A stretch of 48,803 nucleotides of DNA from Geotoga petraea (GTDB lineage Bacteria > Thermotogota > Thermotogae > Petrotogales > Petrotogaceae). Both the position numbers and the translations under genes were made by a program. The notes under the pieces are model-generated. The model was not told where the DNA came from. It saw only the letters and a list, made by a program, of their open reading frames with translations, and searched no databases. Shown here piece after piece: positions 32,205 to 48,112 of the stretch (within the stretch, counting starts at the first letter, position 1; each line of letters begins with the position of its first letter). Location: positions 1 to 48,803 of the forward strand of contig NZ_FMYV01000010.1 in assembly GCF_900102615.1 (NCBI RefSeq), given 5' to 3'.

Positions 32205-32534
32205 TCATTTCATCTTTTCAAATTCATAATTATCTGTCATAATTTTACCTTTAGTTCTTGCAAGCAGCTCAAAATCATCATATTCTTTCAATCCATAACT
32301 TTTTAAAATTTCTTGTATATCGGGTCTTTTTTCATCTGGAAGTCTACTTTTAAAAAAAGCAAACATTTTATTATTTATAAATTTATTTCCCTTTGATTTT
32401 GCAAAGAAAATCTTTTTATTATTCTTTAAATAATTTTCATCATACTCAAACACATACCCTTCTGGGATTTTTTTTAAATACCCAACTGTTATTTTCTCTT
32501 TTTTTCCATTATGAACAACTCTTAATTCATTCAT
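32205..32534 (-). CDS. HipA N-terminal-subdomain-like protein (HipS-like)
   Basis: 109 residues corresponding to the N-terminal subdomain of HipA: VGYLKKIPEGYVFEYDENYL, then FFKSRLPDEKRPDIQEILKSYGL and DDFELLARTKG. In the three-part HipBST systems a free subdomain of this kind (HipS) neutralises the kinase HipT, so this may be an antitoxin. ATG 32534 was preferred because GAGGTGA is 7 bases upstream. It overlaps the kinase gene by 8 bases and lies after it, the reverse of the hipB-hipS-hipT order. No HipB-type DNA-binding partner is seen. Confidence 0.78.
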   Translation of the reverse strand: MNELRVVHNGKKEKITVGYLKKIPEGYVFEYDENYLKNNKKIFFAKSKGNKFINNKMFAFFKSRLPDEKRPDIQEILKSYGLKEYDDFELLARTKGKIMTDNYEFEKMK

Positions 32535-33417
32535 TATCAATCACCTCAATTAACTTATTTCTTCTATTAATTATTAATGTTTTTAAAAATTTTTTATAAA
32601 ATTCATCAATTATTTCTTTAGGTATATTATCCAGTATTTTTTCAATATTCTTATCATAAAGACTTTCTTTTAAATTATAACTGAAATTCATTAAAATATC
32701 TTTATAATGATTCTTAAGATATTTTACAATATCAAAATGTCTTCTTATATTTCTATCATTTAATTTTAATAATGATTTTGAATTACTAGATAAAACTGAA
32801 TTTTGATATCTTTTATCTTTATAAAATTGTTTAATTTTTTTATCTGTTAAGTTGAAACCTAGGGAGGGACTATGATCATATAAAGGAGCAAAAAAATATT
32901 CTCCTTCTTTGTTATATAACCCCCAATTACTATGATGTCTATCACTATTACCTATTAAAGCATCAAATAATATCATACTGATATAGTCTTCTATTAAATC
33001 TTCTCCATTCAAGTGTTCAAGTATTTCTAAACACAATTCAAAAGAATAATCCTTACCATTATTTTCATTTTTCATTGTATTAAAATCATAATTTGGGTAT
33101 TCATCCATAATAAATTTTACTATTTCAAAATACTCTATATTGGACTCTTTATCTTTAAAATTATAGCTTATTGATCCTACACTATCATTTAAATTAGCGA
33201 AATCATATTTAGCTACAGAAATATTTAATAACTCACCAATTTCATAGGCTATTTTTTCAGATACATGTTCCCTAGTATTAGGTTTTATAAACTTAAACAG
33301 AACTTCTTCTTTATTATTTCTAAACCAATATTTTTTATTTCTACCAGATGTAATTAGCCCTTTATCCAAATTCCATTCTTTATCATTTAAATTTATTATT
33401 TTATACAATTTAATCAC
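32527..33417 (-). CDS. HipA-like serine/threonine kinase (HipT/CtkA-like toxin candidate)
   Basis: 296 residues covering the kinase body of HipA without its N-terminal subdomain. Visible are the putative ATP lysine (VLFKFIKP, K42), a glutamate on the next helix (E54 in SEKIAYEIG), the catalytic GNSDRHHSNWG (D159, N164) and the metal-binding aspartate in APLYDHSPSLG (D181). HipA-type kinases stop growth by phosphorylating tRNA synthetases or related targets; the target here is unknown. Followed directly by the HipS-like gene, so the two form one module. Confidence 0.85.
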   Translation of the reverse strand: MIKLYKIINLNDKEWNLDKGLITSGRNKKYWFRNNKEEVLFKFIKPNTREHVSEKIAYEIGELLNISVAKYDFANLNDSVGSISYNFKDKESNIEYFEIVKFIMDEYPNYDFNTMKNENNGKDYSFELCLEILEHLNGEDLIEDYISMILFDALIGNSDRHHSNWGLYNKEGEYFFAPLYDHSPSLGFNLTDKKIKQFYKDKRYQNSVLSSNSKSLLKLNDRNIRRHFDIVKYLKNHYKDILMNFSYNLKESLYDKNIEKILDNIPKEIIDEFYKKFLKTLIINRRNKLIEVIDNE

Positions 33418-37830: not shown

Positions 37831-37858
37831 TAAAAATCCCCAACTAAAGTTGAGGATT
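37831..37858 (-). terminator. Terminator of the accessory operon
   Basis: AATCCTCAACT / AGTTGGGGATT on the minus strand, followed by TTTTTA, just after the stop of the 99-residue gene. Confidence 0.8.
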
Positions 37859-38156
37859 AAATGGTTTTTCCATTTTTTTCTAATTCCAGTATTAGTTTTA
37901 TTATGAATCTTTCAATATTTTCGTATTTTCTGTAGTTATCTGGCAGGTGATCACGAATGACTTTTTCAATAAATCTTAGTTTTTTATTTTTTCTTGGAAT
38001 ATTATATTTTTCAGCAAACCAGTTTATGAATCTAAGAACTTCATATTTATCGTATCTTTTTAGTAATACATCTCCATATTTTTCTCTATTTTCTAAATAA
38101 GAGAATGTATAGTCTTTGAATATCAAATCTCTTTGAGTATATTTTTTAAAATCCAT
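37857..38156 (-). CDS. Hypothetical protein, 99 residues
   Basis: Not recognised. A soluble, basic, helix-rich protein with aromatic residues (DLIFKDYTFSYLENREKYGD, FINWFAEKYNIPRKNKK). ATG 38156 has AAAGGAT upstream. It is the last gene of a five-gene minus-strand array from 41680 and is followed by a terminator; its 13-base gap to the gene before suggests co-transcription. Confidence 0.65.
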   Translation of the reverse strand: MDFKKYTQRDLIFKDYTFSYLENREKYGDVLLKRYDKYEVLRFINWFAEKYNIPRKNKKLRFIEKVIRDHLPDNYRKYENIERFIIKLILELEKNGKTI

Positions 38157-38169
38157 ATTATCATATCCT

Positions 38170-38832
38170 TTATTTTATTTTTCTAGAAATTTCTTTCAAA
38201 CTGTCGCTAATTTCAAATAAAGGGTCTTTTGAATGAATTCTTATATCTTTAAATTCATTAGTATCTAATAAAAATTCTGATTCATACTCTTTACCAATAA
38301 TGTCTTTATATTCTACATTTACTTTGAACTTAATAAAGTTTGGTTTAAAAATATTCTTAAATAAAAATTCTCTTTTTTCATTTGGCATAAAATTTTTAAC
38401 ACCATTTCTGAAAAATTCTAAGTCATTCAATAAGTCATTTTTATTATCGAAAATAGGTATTTTTTTTGATAAAATCACCTTTAGATCATAAGCAACACCT
38501 TTACCTTTGTTTTCAACAACTATAGCAAATGGTCCTTGTCTTTGTTTATCATAATCTAAATATACCAAAATATTTGGTTTTATTTCATTTTCTATGATTT
38601 TTTGGTTTAAATCTATTAGCTTTTTATTATCTTTTCTTTGTAAGTGCGTAATGATTAGTAAAATTACAGTGGCAAAAAATGCTGCCCAAGAAGACAAGTT
38701 CCCAAAAATATCCCAAAACCCTTTATCAATATTTAGTTTTATCGTATCTCCAATTAAAATAGAATTAGATCTGAAGTTCTCTAAAAATTTGAAAAACCTA
38801 TCTATTATTGTATTAAATGAATTTATAACAAT
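38170..38832 (-). CDS. Membrane-anchored hypothetical protein, probable ATT start
   Basis: From ATT 38832 the frame gives 220 residues: an amphipathic N-terminus (VINSFNTIIDRFFKFLENF), a single membrane helix (about 48-62, WAAFFATVILLIITH) and a cytoplasmic beta-rich domain (IKPNILVYLDYDKQRQGPFAIVVENKGKGVAYDLKVIL). No ATG, GTG or TTG exists upstream of TTG 38697, which lacks a good ribosome binding site, whereas a strong GGGGGGAGGG lies at 38841-38850 just before the ATT. A start at 38697 would give 175 residues beginning right before the helix. Function unknown; the beta domain resembles those in other small membrane proteins of defence loci only in general style. Confidence 0.55.
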   Translation of the reverse strand: MVINSFNTIIDRFFKFLENFRSNSILIGDTIKLNIDKGFWDIFGNLSSWAAFFATVILLIITHLQRKDNKKLIDLNQKIIENEIKPNILVYLDYDKQRQGPFAIVVENKGKGVAYDLKVILSKKIPIFDNKNDLLNDLEFFRNGVKNFMPNEKREFLFKNIFKPNFIKFKVNVEYKDIIGKEYESEFLLDTNEFKDIRIHSKDPLFEISDSLKEISRKIK

Positions 38833-38858
38833 AAATATAACCCTCCCCCCTCAATATT

Positions 38859-39689
38859 TTATTTTGACAATATTTTTTCTAAAATATCCATTTCTTTTAT
38901 TTCAAATTTTTTGTAGTCTTTATTTTCAAGCCATATTTGTCCATCTTTGTCTTTTTTTATATTTCTTTTGATGTTTTGAAAATTCTTTTTAGAAATTATC
39001 GAGAATTTTGAATTTTCATTTATGTTATATATAACTATTAAAAAATCATAATTAATGACTTCATTATATATTTTGTTGATTTGAACAGCTGTATTTTCTC
39101 TTACCGCTCTAACAAATAATTTTTTATTTTTTGTATTTTTCTTTTCAATAATAATGACATTATCTTCATTTTCTCCATAAAAAGTAATTTTTTCAACGTC
39201 TTTTAAATATTTAGAATTATTTATTTTACCTATTAATTCCTTCAGCCCTTGATTTCTTGTTTTAACCTTTGTTTTTACCTTTTTACTCATTTTAAGAAAG
39301 ATTGAAATAAGATCTTGAAATACTAAATCTAAATTATAACTCAATACTTTTTTGCTGTATTTTTCCCTACTTATAGAATGTGCGTAAAAATTTCTTATAA
39401 ATGAAAAATAATTTTCTAACTTGTTTTTTCCTTCTAAAGGATAAAAAGTAATTGGATAATTCAAATTTTTATTAAAAGAATATATATTTTCTAAAATTAA
39501 ATCACTAATTATTTGTTTTTGATTAATAAAATCCATTATGCTATAGATTTTTTCTATAGTATTTCTTTTCTCACCAATTATTTTAGACAAAGCACTTGTA
39601 TAAGTATTATCTTGTTTAAAAAAATTTTTTAATTCTTCATTATCAAAATGCATTTTCATTTGAGTTAGATTACTGGCATACTTTTTCAT
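38859..39689 (-). CDS. HEPN-like protein, 276 residues
   Basis: Residues ~20-140 are helical and contain FSFIRNFYAHSISREKY: R99-N-x-x-x-H104 is the Rx4H motif with a polar residue after R that marks HEPN ribonuclease domains. Residues ~165-270 form a different, beta-rich domain (ENEDNVIIIEKKN...KLFVRAV...NYDFLIVIYNINE). HEPN proteins often cut RNA in toxin-antitoxin and antiphage systems; this assignment is from the motif alone. ATG 39689 lies inside the preceding gene (20-base overlap), so the two are coupled. Confidence 0.6.
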   Translation of the reverse strand: MKKYASNLTQMKMHFDNEELKNFFKQDNTYTSALSKIIGEKRNTIEKIYSIMDFINQKQIISDLILENIYSFNKNLNYPITFYPLEGKNKLENYFSFIRNFYAHSISREKYSKKVLSYNLDLVFQDLISIFLKMSKKVKTKVKTRNQGLKELIGKINNSKYLKDVEKITFYGENEDNVIIIEKKNTKNKKLFVRAVRENTAVQINKIYNEVINYDFLIVIYNINENSKFSIISKKNFQNIKRNIKKDKDGQIWLENKDYKKFEIKEMDILEKILSK

Positions 39690-40020
39690 TATTTAGCTTA
39701 TACTCTACAAGCTCATAATCATAATTTGTTATATTATATTCTTTAATGAAATATCCCATTATTTCAATCAAGATCTCTTCTGATTTATTAATTAATATAT
39801 CTAATAATGCCCCTCCATAATCTCTTTTAAATACATCTTCTTTTATTATAAAAAGAATTTCATTTATAGATTTACTACTATAAATACATTCAATAAAATC
39901 ATTATCAATTGATATATTTAATAAATCGTTTAAATAAAAAGAATGATTATAAATTTTATATTTTAAATAACATCTTTCCTGTGCTGTATTTACAAAGTCT
40001 TTTTTGGGGTTAATCTTCAT
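39670..40020 (-). CDS. Hypothetical protein, 116 residues
   Basis: Not recognised. Acidic and helical (NSFYLNDLL... is typical of its style: FIECIYSSKSINEILFIIKED, GGALLDILINKSEEILIEIMGYFIKEY), with two cysteines and no membrane segment. ATG 40020 has AAAGGGGGT upstream. It overlaps the HEPN-like gene by 20 bases, so its protein may bind or restrain that partner, as small upstream genes do in toxin-antitoxin pairs; this is inference. Confidence 0.65.
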   Translation of the reverse strand: MKINPKKDFVNTAQERCYLKYKIYNHSFYLNDLLNISIDNDFIECIYSSKSINEILFIIKEDVFKRDYGGALLDILINKSEEILIEIMGYFIKEYNITNYDYELVEYKLNNEKVCQ

Positions 40021-40144
40021 ACTTAACCCCCTTTCATTTTTTCTTTTTTCATATTATTTTCATTAAAATATTCATTATTATATAACTCATAAATTTCTAA
40101 ATAAGCTATGATTCTTTATTATTAAATATGTTACTTGTGTAAAA

Positions 40145-41680
40145 TCAATATTTATAGATCGATCTTTTTACTGATTTAAAAATACCCTTTTTATTTTTAA
40201 CCTTAATATCTTTTGGGCAGAGGTAATATCTAACATTATTTTTTCTATTGATTATTACTTTTTTCCCCATCGATAAGAAATCATATATTAGTACTTCATC
40301 ACTATAAGGAATAACCCACCATTTTCTCAAATAAAAAAGATTTTTATTATCAAAATTATAATACATTTTATTATCTTTTGATAAATACATTATATTCAGA
40401 TAGTCTAAAGCTTTTCTAATAAATATTTTTTGAGATGGTGAGTTTTCTGTAACATTGTAAAAATTATTATTCTCATTTAGTGATTTAGCAATTGATTCGT
40501 CTGGATGATTTTTGTAATTTGTGCCAGAAGAAACTATAAAATTCATATTTTTCTCTTCAGAAAATTCATAATTATAATTATTTTTTGAGCCATGGTGAGG
40601 TATTTGAATGATATATATATTCTTCCAATATCTTTTGTATATATTTTGAATATTTAAATTTTCTTTTTTTATATTTCCATCACCAGTATATAGACACCCA
40701 TGTTTTCCATTATTAGGCTCTAATTTTTTAATTCTTTTATGGAGGAAGTATAATCTTTCATTTTGATTTAAGTATTTCAATGTTTTAAAGTTTTTAACTT
40801 TGCTTTTATACTTCTTCTCATTTAAAATAAGTCTATCAAAACAAATTGTGATTTTTCTGATATTTATTTTTTCTTTTCCAGAATATAAAAACATAGATGA
40901 ATCATTCAAATTTTTAAAAAATTCTTTATACACATCTATTATTTTTTCAATATTTTCTTTGTAATTTTCTGGGATCAATATATCTATGTCTTTTTCCTTT
41001 AATCTACTGCTGATTTTACTATAATATTCTTTACATTTATGATTATAAAGACTATAAACCCATAAATTAGAATTTTTTGAAGATTCACTAATGTTTTGAC
41101 TAATATTAATTTTTAAAAACTTTTTATCATATACTTCAATTTTATTTTTATACTCTGATAATAAATTAGAAAAATCAATCCCTTCTTCAAAAAAAGGTTC
41201 TTTGCGATTTTCCTCATAATAATCAGGGTGTTTTTTTATTATTGTTATGTTATTTAATTTTTCAATTGTTTCTTCATTAAAATTGTAATTTTGTAAATAT
41301 TTATAATTTTTTAGTTGATCATAATAACTATAATTTAAAAACTTGACTGATTCATAGTTACTATGAATCAAACTATTTGATACTTCTATTATGACTTCTT
41401 TCTTTAACAAATACGGAATTATAATCATTTTTATTTCTGATTTTTGTAATAATTTTTCTATACCACTAATATGGTCATTATGAAAATGCGATATAAAAAG
41501 AATATCTATTGTTTTTGAATTGAAATTATTTATGCTTTTTTCTAATGCTTTTTTGTTATTAGAACCACAATCATAAACAATGTTGAATTCTTTTCCATCA
41601 TCAAATTTCAGTTTTTCACTGTAAAATGCTCCTTGCCCAACTGGCCAAAAAATCCTTTCCACTGATTTTATATATTTCAT
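40145..41680 (-). CDS. Metallo-beta-lactamase-fold protein, ComEC/Rec2 type, 511 residues
   Basis: The metal-binding pattern is complete: HFHNDH (65-70), TGDGN (TGD at 332-334), PHHGS (H362, H363) and NHPD (H392). The start VERIFWPVGQGAF matches the free ComEC-like MBL proteins, which have no membrane domain. A long insert (about 110-320) separates the first motifs from the rest. Such enzymes are nucleases or phosphodiesterases and recur in antiphage loci. ATG 41680 has GGGAGGAT upstream. First gene of the five-gene array; 124 bases separate it from the next. Confidence 0.8.
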   Translation of the reverse strand: MKYIKSVERIFWPVGQGAFYSEKLKFDDGKEFNIVYDCGSNNKKALEKSINNFNSKTIDILFISHFHNDHISGIEKLLQKSEIKMIIIPYLLKKEVIIEVSNSLIHSNYESVKFLNYSYYDQLKNYKYLQNYNFNEETIEKLNNITIIKKHPDYYEENRKEPFFEEGIDFSNLLSEYKNKIEVYDKKFLKINISQNISESSKNSNLWVYSLYNHKCKEYYSKISSRLKEKDIDILIPENYKENIEKIIDVYKEFFKNLNDSSMFLYSGKEKINIRKITICFDRLILNEKKYKSKVKNFKTLKYLNQNERLYFLHKRIKKLEPNNGKHGCLYTGDGNIKKENLNIQNIYKRYWKNIYIIQIPHHGSKNNYNYEFSEEKNMNFIVSSGTNYKNHPDESIAKSLNENNNFYNVTENSPSQKIFIRKALDYLNIMYLSKDNKMYYNFDNKNLFYLRKWWVIPYSDEVLIYDFLSMGKKVIINRKNNVRYYLCPKDIKVKNKKGIFKSVKRSIYKY

Positions 41681-41896
41681 TTCCCATCCTCCCTGCTTGT
41701 TATATTTTTATTTTATATTATTTTCAATTTTCAATCAAATTATATGTTAATTATTTAATTAATTTTTGTTGTATTTCTGTTATTGTTTGTTTAGATAGAT
41801 ATCTAAATATTTTCATTTTAAAATTAAAAACATAACTACAAAAGAAATCATATTTTTGGTTGACTATTATTTTTTAAGTTTTTTATTCTTGAATCT

Positions 41897-42807
41897 GCTA
41901 TAAGGTTTCAAATGGTTTTTCAATTAATAACAATACTGTAGAAGAAGAATGGCTATATCATAGACCAAAAGGAAGAGAAGCAAGAATTTTTGAAAGAAGT
42001 AACGGAGAATTTATTAGAGGTAAAGATTTCAGTGAAGGGAAAGATGTTGAAGATAAAACTAAACCTAATACCCTTTTTTTATCTTCTTTATCTCAGTGGA
42101 ACAGTAAAACCGCTAAAAGAATTTTAGAAAGCATTAAAAATATTAACATTTTAAATACTTCTACAGCTATAGGACCTTTTATTACTATTGATTTAATAGA
42201 AAAAGGTGAAATTACAAAAGATGATGTTTTAGATTTTTTAAAACTATCGGACTTTGGTATTAATGATTTTAGCATTGAAAATAAAGAACTTGATTTCTCA
42301 AAATTACCTAAAGGTATCCAAGAGTTAATAAAAAATTCTAATCCTGATGAATTTAAAATACCTGATAAATATTATTCCACAAAGATAAATCCAGTTCATT
42401 TTTCTTATGATAAAAATGAAAAATCGAGTGTAGTTTTAGATTTTGAAAAAGAAGAATCTGAAGGTACTAAAAGAGGTTGAGTTTTATTAATAGATGAGTT
42501 AGATACAAGTATTCATCCTTTATTATTAGATAAAATTATAGATCTTTTTAATTCAGAATATAATAAAAATAAAGCTCAGTTAATTTTTTCTACTCATAAC
42601 ACAAGAATTTTAAAAAATCAAACTTTGAACAAAGATAATATATGGTTCGCTACAAAAAATAAATATGGAGTGTCAGAACTTTTTTCATTATTAGAAATCA
42701 AGAATGTTAGAAGATCTGGTAACTTTGAAAATGAATACTTATCTGGAAGATATGGGGCTATACCTTATATTAATGATATTTTAGACAGAGTTGATGTTGA
42801 TGAATAA
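41897..42807 (+). pseudogene. Decayed AAA15/OLD-type ATPase (RloA/AbiLii-like)
   Basis: The frame reads SINNNTVEEEWLYHRPKGREARIFERSNGEF, typical of the middle of abortive-infection ATPases, then ends at TGA 42478-42480 and continues in the same frame with VLLIDELDTSIHPLLLDKI (Walker B) and LIFSTHNTRIL. The N-terminal part with Walker A is missing, and about 15 residues that normally lie between SEGTK and the Walker B strand are deleted next to the stop. So it is truncated, has an internal deletion and has a nonsense codon. Its partner gene (RloB-like) is not present. Confidence 0.85.
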
Positions 42808-42929: not shown

Positions 42930-43508
42930 TTATCTTTTTTCTATTATATCTTCTGGATTCAATATTTTTAAATATTGCAAAAGATCACCTTTTTTATATT
43001 CTTTGTCTATAAAAATATAATTATGCTTTTCATAAAAATTTCTTAAATATGGTATATTTTTGCATTCAACTAGAATGCCTCTTCCGGCTATTTTTTCTTG
43101 CCCTTCTTTTATTTTAAAATGTGCTTTTTCAATTAGTTCATCTCCAGATATTTTAGATCTAAATTTGTCATTCTTACCTAATTGCCCTATTAAAAAAACT
43201 GGTATATTTTTTTCTCTTGGATTTGAAAAACCTGTTAGTTTTTTAATTTTGGTTTTGCTAATACCTTTATCTATATTTAATGTTTTTTGAGATAAAGTAA
43301 AATATCCTAAGATTTTTATTTCTGAAATATGATCAAAAGTTTTATCTTCAATTACAAAATAAGTCCTAGCCAATCCTTGAATTTCATATCTTATCGCTTG
43401 CTTTTTTAAAAAATAATCAATATCTTGTTTTTTTTCACATAAAAAATTAGAGATAAGTGAGCTTGTTAAATCTTCACTTATCTCTAGTGCTTCTTTAAGT
43501 AGGAGAAT
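42930..43508 (-). CDS. GNAT-family acetyltransferase, toxin-like, apparent ATT start
   Basis: The frame opens without any ATG/GTG/TTG at ATT 43508 (LLLKEALEISEDLTSSL...CEKKQDIDYFLKKQAIRYEIQGLARTYFVIED), which is where relatives I recall begin, and gives 192 residues. Later parts are GNAT-like: IPVFLIGQLGKND and the acetyl-CoA region GRGILVECKN...LRNFYEKHNYIFID. Starting at the first TTG (43373) would remove the first 45 residues. It overlaps the 60-residue gene before it by 25 bases, the layout of a GNAT toxin-antitoxin pair. Either a rare start codon, a frameshift fusion, or a toxin disabled by start loss. Confidence 0.6.
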   Translation of the reverse strand: MLLLKEALEISEDLTSSLISNFLCEKKQDIDYFLKKQAIRYEIQGLARTYFVIEDKTFDHISEIKILGYFTLSQKTLNIDKGISKTKIKKLTGFSNPREKNIPVFLIGQLGKNDKFRSKISGDELIEKAHFKIKEGQEKIAGRGILVECKNIPYLRNFYEKHNYIFIDKEYKKGDLLQYLKILNPEDIIEKR

Positions 43509-43666
43509 TGTTTTCTGAATCTCTTTATACCTTCCTCGTATTTTTCTTTTTTGATAACATTTGGATCGGTTTTTAATGATTTTGGATTCTCAAAAGCTTT
43601 CTCTAAAGAATTCAATTCTCTCTCTGTTTTTATTCTAAAATCTTTATAAAAAGAAGATGTAGCCAT
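43484..43666 (-). CDS. Small antitoxin-like protein, 60 residues
   Basis: The protein (SSFYKDFRIKTERELNSLE then KAFENPKSLKTDPNVIKKEKYEEGIKRF) resembles the short proteins that precede GNAT-type acetyltransferases in many Firmicutes and act as antitoxins. ATG 43666 has AAAGGGGG upstream. It overlaps the acetyltransferase frame by 25 bases. The assignment depends largely on that context. Confidence 0.6.
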   Translation of the reverse strand: MATSSFYKDFRIKTERELNSLEKAFENPKSLKTDPNVIKKEKYEEGIKRFRKQFSYLKKH

Positions 43667-44000: not shown

Positions 44001-44092
44001 TTGTATAATTTTTTATTTTTAGAGATATAATTTAATTAGGTTTTTGTTAAAAAACTCCGCACTTATTTTTATATGCGAATGTTTCTAACAAG
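44001..44092 (+). repeat. Promoter-plus-hairpin module, copy 1
   Basis: TTGTAT, 19 bases, TATAAT (44026-44031), then TTTTTGTTAAAAA, a CTCCGCA...TGCGAA hairpin and TGTTTCTA. A diverged copy with the same order lies at 48244-48333. It looks transcribed but contains no gene; it may encode a small RNA or be an element end. Confidence 0.45.
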
Positions 44093-44212
44093 CAGGGGTT
44101 ATATGAAATATATAGAAGCATCTTTCAGAGTAAAAACTTTTAATATATCAATGGAAGAATAACTTAGTTTTACCTTCTCAACATGTTCAAGGTAACCTTA
44201 GCCTCTGTTATT

Positions 44213-47389: not shown

Positions 47390-47407
47390 TAAGTATTGCG
47401 GTGAAGC

Positions 47408-47527
47408 GGTGATCCCTACCAATACCAAAACGGGAAGTATAGCACGCGGTGATCCCTACCAACACCAAAACGGGAAGTATAGTACGTGGTGATCCCTACC
47501 AACACCAAAACGGGAAGTATAGATAGT
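47408..47527 (+). ncRNA. toxI: Type III antitoxin RNA: three tandem 40-nt pseudoknot repeats (ToxI-like)
   Basis: Three units (47408, 47448, 47488) start GGTGATCCCTACC and contain ACCAAAACGGGAAGTATAG. In each, GGTG can pair with CACC (TACC in unit 1, still pairing through G-U), and TCCC in the loop with GGGA downstream, an H-type pseudoknot. Exact 40-nt periodicity, a GC content well above the surroundings, a terminator right after and a ToxN-family frame next match type III systems, in which the repeat RNA, cut into units, wraps and blocks the toxin. The GGTGAT...CTACC string also recalls Pectobacterium ToxI. Confidence 0.85.
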
Positions 47528-47608: not shown

Positions 47609-48112
47609 ATGGTAAGCAATCATTTGAAAATATAGATAATTAATGATGATTATTTTTTGTACTTATCAAAATTTGATAGTAGAATATATCATAATAAGAA
47701 TGGGAAAAGACCTTATTTGGGAATTTTTATTGATTTAAAAGATATCAAATATTTTGTTCCTATGGTATCTCCAAAAGAAAAACATAAAAAAATGAAAAAT
47801 AATATTGATTTTCATAAAATTGATGGAGGTAAATATGGGGCATTAAATTTTAATGCAATGATACCAGTTGGAAATAATGATTACAATCTAATGGATTTTT
47901 CTTCTTTAGCGGCACATAGAGTTAACCAAATGAATGATCAATTAAAATGGTTCCAACTAAATAAAGATAAAATTATTAAAAAAGCAAATAATATTAGAAA
48001 CAGATTTTTAAATAACTCATTACCTAAAACAATAAAAGAAAGATGCCTTAACTTTATTATTTTAGAAGATAAATTAAAAGAATGGATAAACCTCCCTAGA
48101 AATAATTATTAA
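47609..48112 (+). pseudogene. toxN: ToxN/AbiQ-family type III toxin with an amber codon at position 9
   Basis: From ATG 47609 (GAGGTG upstream) the frame gives 167 residues, the usual ToxN length, interrupted only by TAG at 47633-47635. Sequence: SNHLKI, stop, IINDDYFLYLSKFDSRIYHNKNGKRPYLGIFI, then YFVPMVSPKEKH and HKIDGGKYGALNFNAMIPV, matching the ToxN core. Relatives have tyrosine at the stop position (KFY), so one base change (TAT/TAC to TAG) explains it. ToxN is an endoribonuclease giving phage resistance. The product would be dead unless translation restarts (TTG 47657, losing 16 residues) or the stop is read through. Confidence 0.82.

Follow-up and report, generated by a model that had tools for sequence, protein, structure and literature searches.

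Gene layout and base composition

The DNA analysed here, referred to as the window, comprises 48,803 nucleotides of contig NZ_FMYV01000010.1 of Geotoga petraea (Thermotogota, assembly GCF_900102615.1). Five minus-strand open reading frames (ORFs) span 37857-41680, and a sequence-only reading had proposed them as a tight five-gene operon and candidate defence system. They encode a metallo-beta-lactamase (MBL) protein, a HEPN-like protein, a membrane protein and two small proteins. The coordinates were verified. At the local composition, where a stop is expected in 11% of minus-strand codons, frames of these lengths would arise by chance with probabilities between 1e-5 (99 aa) and 5e-26 (511 aa). 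In the direction of reading, the features are:

40145..41680 (-), predicted MBL nuclease gene, 511 aa; from PF00753, TIGR00361, family alignment and motif spacing relative to E. coli YcaI
40021..40144 (-), gap of 124 bases between the MBL gene and the four-gene unit; from ORF coordinates
39670..40020 (-), small protein gene, 116 aa; ORF, overlaps the next gene by 20 bases
38859..39689 (-), HEPN-like protein gene, 276 aa; from the motif with shuffles and low-confidence AlphaFold2 secondary structure
38170..38832 (-), membrane-anchored protein gene, about 220 aa; from hydropathy, relatives and PHROG 9607
37857..38156 (-), small protein gene, 99 aa; ORF, PHROG 33929 and PHROG 32103
37835..37858 (-), intrinsic terminator closing the cluster; 10-pair stem, -11.9 kcal/mol, fold z -4.1

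The five ORFs are real, and close packing was found for the last four. The reported overlap of the 116-aa and 276-aa genes was reproduced (20 bases, 39670-39689). Provided that ATT 38832 is its start, the membrane gene lies within about 26 bases of the 276-aa gene; 13 bases separate it from the downstream 99-aa gene. The MBL gene stands apart, 124 bases upstream of the 116-aa gene on the same strand. No terminator was found between it and the other four genes; the terminator of the cluster overlaps the last stop codon. Promoter matches at the locus were no more numerous than in shuffles.

Four conserved genes of the window have a GC content of 31-36%, compared with 20-23% across all five genes of the cluster. 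In six relatives examined, other genes (core genes in most) are located upstream of fliD and the five-gene cluster is absent there. Based on the low GC content and this absence, the five-gene DNA looks acquired.

The MBL protein and its family

The MBL protein matched Pfam PF00753 (E 2.6e-9), the NCBIfam ComEC model TIGR00361 (E 6.5e-10) and, with modest scores, the PADLOC models LmuA, PDC-M48B and RTasMBL (E 3e-11 to 3e-6). The complete ComEC-like metal site that had been read from the translation was recovered, with HFHNDH at residues 65-70, TGD at 332-334 and HHGS at 362-365. Motif III was N259/S262, and the spacing of TGD and HHGS was ComEC-like. In the family alignment A1, with YcaI as control, the elements of a ComEC-type nuclease domain (VGQG/YDxG, HxxxDH, N..S, TGD and HHGS) were present in order; the family motifs were VGQGxF, YDCGS, SHF[DH]xDH, IPYL, W..PYN, N..S, TGD and PHHGS. 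Motif II reads HxHxDH in the window protein and HxDxDH in 25 of 36 family members. The C-terminal nuclease domain of ComEC (B. subtilis, M. thermoacetica, E. coli YcaI) shares the order VGQG, YDxG, H-x-[D/H]-x-D-H, N..S, TGD, HHGS. The ComEC domain has Mn2+-dependent nuclease activity (PMC8579336). Unlike ComEC proper, the 511-aa protein showed no fusion to the competence membrane channel, and only MBL-type families scored above cut-off. The 6A-MBL model NF058524 was not reached (20 bits, cut-off 220).

A second difference from ComEC lies in two insertions around the active site, one about 130 and the other about 55 residues long. The interval between motifs II and III comprised 194 residues, compared with 60 in E. 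coli YcaI, and that between motifs III and IV 75 residues, compared with 20. The interval between motifs IV and V was similar (28 and about 26). Long intervals are a family-wide feature, with 163-243 residues for II-III and 38-84 for III-IV. In addition, the window protein is extended at its C-terminus by about 100 residues that were not seen in the aligned relatives.

These features also bear on the reading that the MBL protein acts on nucleotide signals, or as an Apyc1-like counter-defence protein on mobile elements, instead of as a DNA nuclease. A weak match to PF23023 (E 0.0018, below cut-off) and the occurrence of family members in prophage contigs point that way. However, the motif order, motif III and the TGD-HHGS spacing are all of the ComEC type and, beyond the general MBL domain, the strongest matches are to ComEC and defence MBL models, which makes this reading very improbable.

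The nearest characterised relatives are the trypsin-MBL modules, comprising HamM and its relatives in Hachiman, AVAST, Lamassu and DRT (PMC12799240). HamM is a defence MBL nuclease whose site is blocked by two insertions, which a partner protease cleaves (PMC12799240). The window protein and the HamM-type MBLs have in common a ComEC-like domain, association with defence, repeated moves between defence loci and two insertions, the latter judged by interval lengths relative to YcaI. Unlike the trypsin-MBL modules, no adjacent or fused trypsin-type protease was found: no trypsin-type active-site motif was present in the window or in the scanned neighbours of about 45 family loci, where caspase-type motifs were not searched for. 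If the window MBL is gated, its release would therefore proceed by other means. By analogy with the HamM pro-nuclease, the two long insertions probably hold the enzyme inactive until infection; once opened, it would cut DNA. The PADLOC candidate PDC-M48B also includes an MBL protein, which matched the window MBL with E 1.4e-10 but a low score in a comparison of the MBL component alone. A tandem MBL gene pair is located at L064:6703-9260, the first of which (PF00753) is probably the strong PDC-M48B match among the neighbours of the family. Within the window, a short stretch at 44088-44165 (+) resembles the beginning of the MBL gene (aacaagcagg...ATGAAATATATA) and is possibly a relic or a chance likeness.

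Relatives of the MBL protein are widespread. On plasmids, tblastn recovered members with about 24-42% identity in Hymenobacter, Tistrella, Pseudomonas, Lactococcus, Zymomonas and rhizobia. A scan of a genome collection gave 80 loci; roughly the first 37 are family members and come from many phyla. Further members turned up on 16 contigs of viral or prophage origin. Most are lone genes. Defence genes recurred in their neighbourhoods: hsdM/hsdS of type I restriction-modification systems (L061, L063), HsdR-like proteins (L058, L023), Cas3 (L049), AAA_13 with GmrSD (L059), HerA-type ATPases (L057, L072), nSTAND1-WD40 (L075) and NACHT (L022). In a genome of the same family, a truncated MBL relic of about 50 residues abuts a SIR2-HerA pair.

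For 20 loci, neighbouring genes were compared with control stretches taken from arbitrary places of the same 20 genomes. At E<=1e-15, the 73 MBL-family neighbours matched 144 PADLOC models and the 72 control genes matched 14, a difference that is to be taken as an indication and not as a count of systems, since the models overlap. The loci L078-L116 were dropped as control neighbourhoods; they apparently represent one conserved unrelated locus. Genes with a hydrophobic-RNxxxH motif were also enriched near the family (8 of 204 genes, versus 1 of 190 in controls; Fisher P 0.024). One of the motif-bearing neighbours was confirmed as an LA2681-type HEPN protein and the others rest on the motif.

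Based on the spread over phyla, plasmids and prophages, often beside defence genes, a defence role of the MBL family is likely. The family seems to form a mobile branch, lacking a protease, of the gated ComEC-type nucleases that were recently established as defence effectors, which is the more general finding of this locus. What activates such an enzyme in the absence of a protease is a testable question, with family members in the tractable hosts Escherichia, Pseudomonas and Lactococcus.

The four downstream genes

The 276-aa protein carries the motif R99-N-F-Y-A-H104. The Rx4H signature proposed earlier is thus present, in the RNxxxH form and within the Rx4-6H pattern of the HEPN superfamily. 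RNxxxH turned up in 0.7% of shuffles of the protein (P 0.007), and the looser R[NDH]xxxH in 2 of 41 window genes of at least 100 aa. A single-sequence AlphaFold2 model had a mean pLDDT (predicted local distance difference test) of 37, too poor to assign a fold. It placed helices at residues 33-56, 61-74, 90-107 and 113-157; the N-terminus was alpha-helical and the C-terminus showed the order strand-strand-strand-helix-strand, as in restriction-endonuclease-like domains. The predicted order of elements is compatible with a HEPN domain followed by a restriction-endonuclease-like domain.

Searches of Pfam, NCBIfam and PADLOC gave no HEPN profile match to the 276-aa protein at E<=1, and PHROG gave nothing convincing. 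Credible homologues were found neither in plasmids, phages, viral contigs and 84,980 genomes (8-mer patterns), nor in three smaller genome sets, with 103 from the same phylum, 398 from a different one and 30 reached via MBL-type loci. Weak matches were checked and rejected as chance. An hhalign comparison to a pair of HEPN-like proteins encoded at related loci returned nothing, and two of the recurring HEPN-motif neighbours of the MBL family showed no similarity to it. The empty profile searches and hhalign comparisons, together with the low-confidence endonuclease-like order of the C-terminus, favour a protein that is not a HEPN RNase, in which RNxxxH arose by chance and any activity resides in the C-terminal domain, or which acts as a sensor. 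Against this stand the rarity of the motif in shuffles and its position near the end of a predicted helix with a long helix next, as in HEPN domains, so that we regard a non-HEPN protein as unlikely. If HEPN is confirmed, this orphan, missed by standard libraries, would add to the hidden defence RNases.

Among known HEPN proteins, Tha is an anti-phage RNase of S. aureus prophages in which R265NSIMH270 is essential (PMC11087260). Both proteins are about 300 aa long with one RNxxxH motif of the same form. The HEPN part is C-terminal in Tha and N-terminal in the 276-aa protein, and the gene contexts differ; the likeness seen is one of length and motif. A further system, HEPN-TM, comes from phage-inducible chromosomal islands (Fillol-Salom 2022, cited in PMC11087260); the comparison with it goes by its name, which suggests HEPN with a transmembrane part. 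The window locus has two further small genes and the MBL gene.

The 116-aa protein gave no PADLOC or NCBIfam match, a sub-threshold Pfam match, weak PHROG matches and no credible relative. Its single-sequence model was all helical with low confidence (pLDDT 52). A viral-contig match over 28 residues (L117) lay inside an unrelated 639-aa phage gene and was taken as chance, and two weak matches in the same family were not upheld by tblastn. The 20-base overlap suggests translational coupling with the 276-aa protein, and a role as partner, antitoxin or regulator is possible. A HEPN-MNT toxin-antitoxin pair would include a nucleotidyltransferase partner. The 116-aa protein matched no MNT family in the Pfam, NCBIfam and PADLOC searches, and inspection by eye revealed no GS/D.D motif of the nucleotidyltransferase type.

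The one-helix architecture proposed for the membrane protein was upheld, with a single hydrophobic segment (hydropathy peak at residues 46-64) and a soluble domain after the helix. Its length needed revision. TTG 38697, the first conventional start, would give 175 aa, and relatives extend upstream of it; the start is probably ATT near 38832 behind GAGGGGGGAGGG, giving 220 aa. The protein matched PHROG 9607 (E 2.6e-8). Each of two genomes from its phylum carries a relative (E 5e-12 and 1e-7). One relative is located directly after a DISARM DrmD-DrmMI operon (L126); the other follows a 1099-aa protein, beyond which lies a HEPN-like gene (L125). Weaker relatives occurred in other bacteria without a clear defence locus, including one in an SPbeta-like phage near aimR. 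A defence role is suggested for this family as well, more weakly than for the MBL family. At L132:4501-5492, a HEPN-like 262-aa gene lies beside a truncated MBL relic; a relative of this gene with 42% identity is found in L125, close to the relative of the membrane protein. The 99-aa protein resembled the function-unassigned phage families PHROG 33929 (E 3e-6) and PHROG 32103 (E 2e-5).

Two probable units or one system, and the surrounding island

The locus is best read as acquired anti-phage cargo in which a stand-alone MBL nuclease and a separate four-gene module stand in line, to which we assign a probability of about 0.5. The first unit would be the ComEC-type MBL nuclease with its complete metal site. 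The second would be an abortive-infection or toxin-antitoxin-type module of four genes, in which the 116-aa protein, translationally coupled, probably restrains the HEPN-like RNase, and to which the membrane-anchored accessory protein and the small 99-aa protein would also belong. Direct observation covers the ORFs with their motifs and insertions, the terminator, the base composition and the variety of defence contexts around the MBL family; nuclease activities, gating, the antitoxin role, co-transcription and the phage trigger are what we infer for the window proteins.

In the alternative, the five genes form one integrated system, with an MBL DNase and a HEPN RNase as effectors of a sensor complex of the 116-aa, membrane and 99-aa proteins. 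The common strand, the single terminator at the end and uniformly low GC content agree with this, as does the recurrence of HEPN-motif genes near the MBL family, some directly adjacent and in the same direction (L067, L052, L037). The claim that the five genes travel together was not borne out, however. Homologues of the MBL gene were scattered, and relatives of the other four genes stood beside it in 0 of about 60 other family loci. The 124-base gap, the predominance of lone MBL genes and the dissimilarity of the two compared HEPN-motif neighbours to the 276-aa protein also speak against one system, which we consider doubtful. Slightly more doubtful is its elaboration into a single immune system of gated MBL DNase and HEPN RNase under protease-free control by the coupled small protein and a membrane sensor. 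Two units are favoured because the MBL family moves by itself. Of the earlier proposal, the defence cargo was retained and the five-gene system was not supported.

Several points weigh against the two-unit reading. The MBL gene and the four-gene unit may be one, possibly co-transcribed, given their same-strand spacing and the lack of a terminator between them. No homologue or profile stands behind the HEPN fold of the 276-aa protein, and its model is unusable. The PADLOC enrichment counts overlapping models instead of independent proteins, and one neighbour can match many. Some relatives of the membrane protein (Bacillota) lie outside obvious defence loci.

The surrounding island sits between flagellar genes and a 5S rRNA gene at the contig end (48626-48739, -). 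An AAA ATPase remnant, truncated at its 5' end and interrupted by an in-frame TGA (42478-42480), is located at 41890-42807 (+). The matches of its two halves to PHROG 5836 are colinear (E 9e-10 and 6e-30). An acetyltransferase-like gene at 42930-43373 (-; PHROG 1758, E 8e-27) and a 60-aa ORF upstream (43484-43666, -) form a possible GNAT toxin pair. A gene pair encoding 111 aa and 296 aa at 32205-33417 (-) is a candidate HipA-like pair by eye (DALIGNSDRHHSNW). The repeat of a type III toxin-antitoxin locus (+), comprising 2.9 copies of a 40-base unit at 47406-47522, gave no Rfam ToxI match at gathering score; its ToxN is encoded at 47657-48112 with a TTG start (PF13958, E 9e-37).

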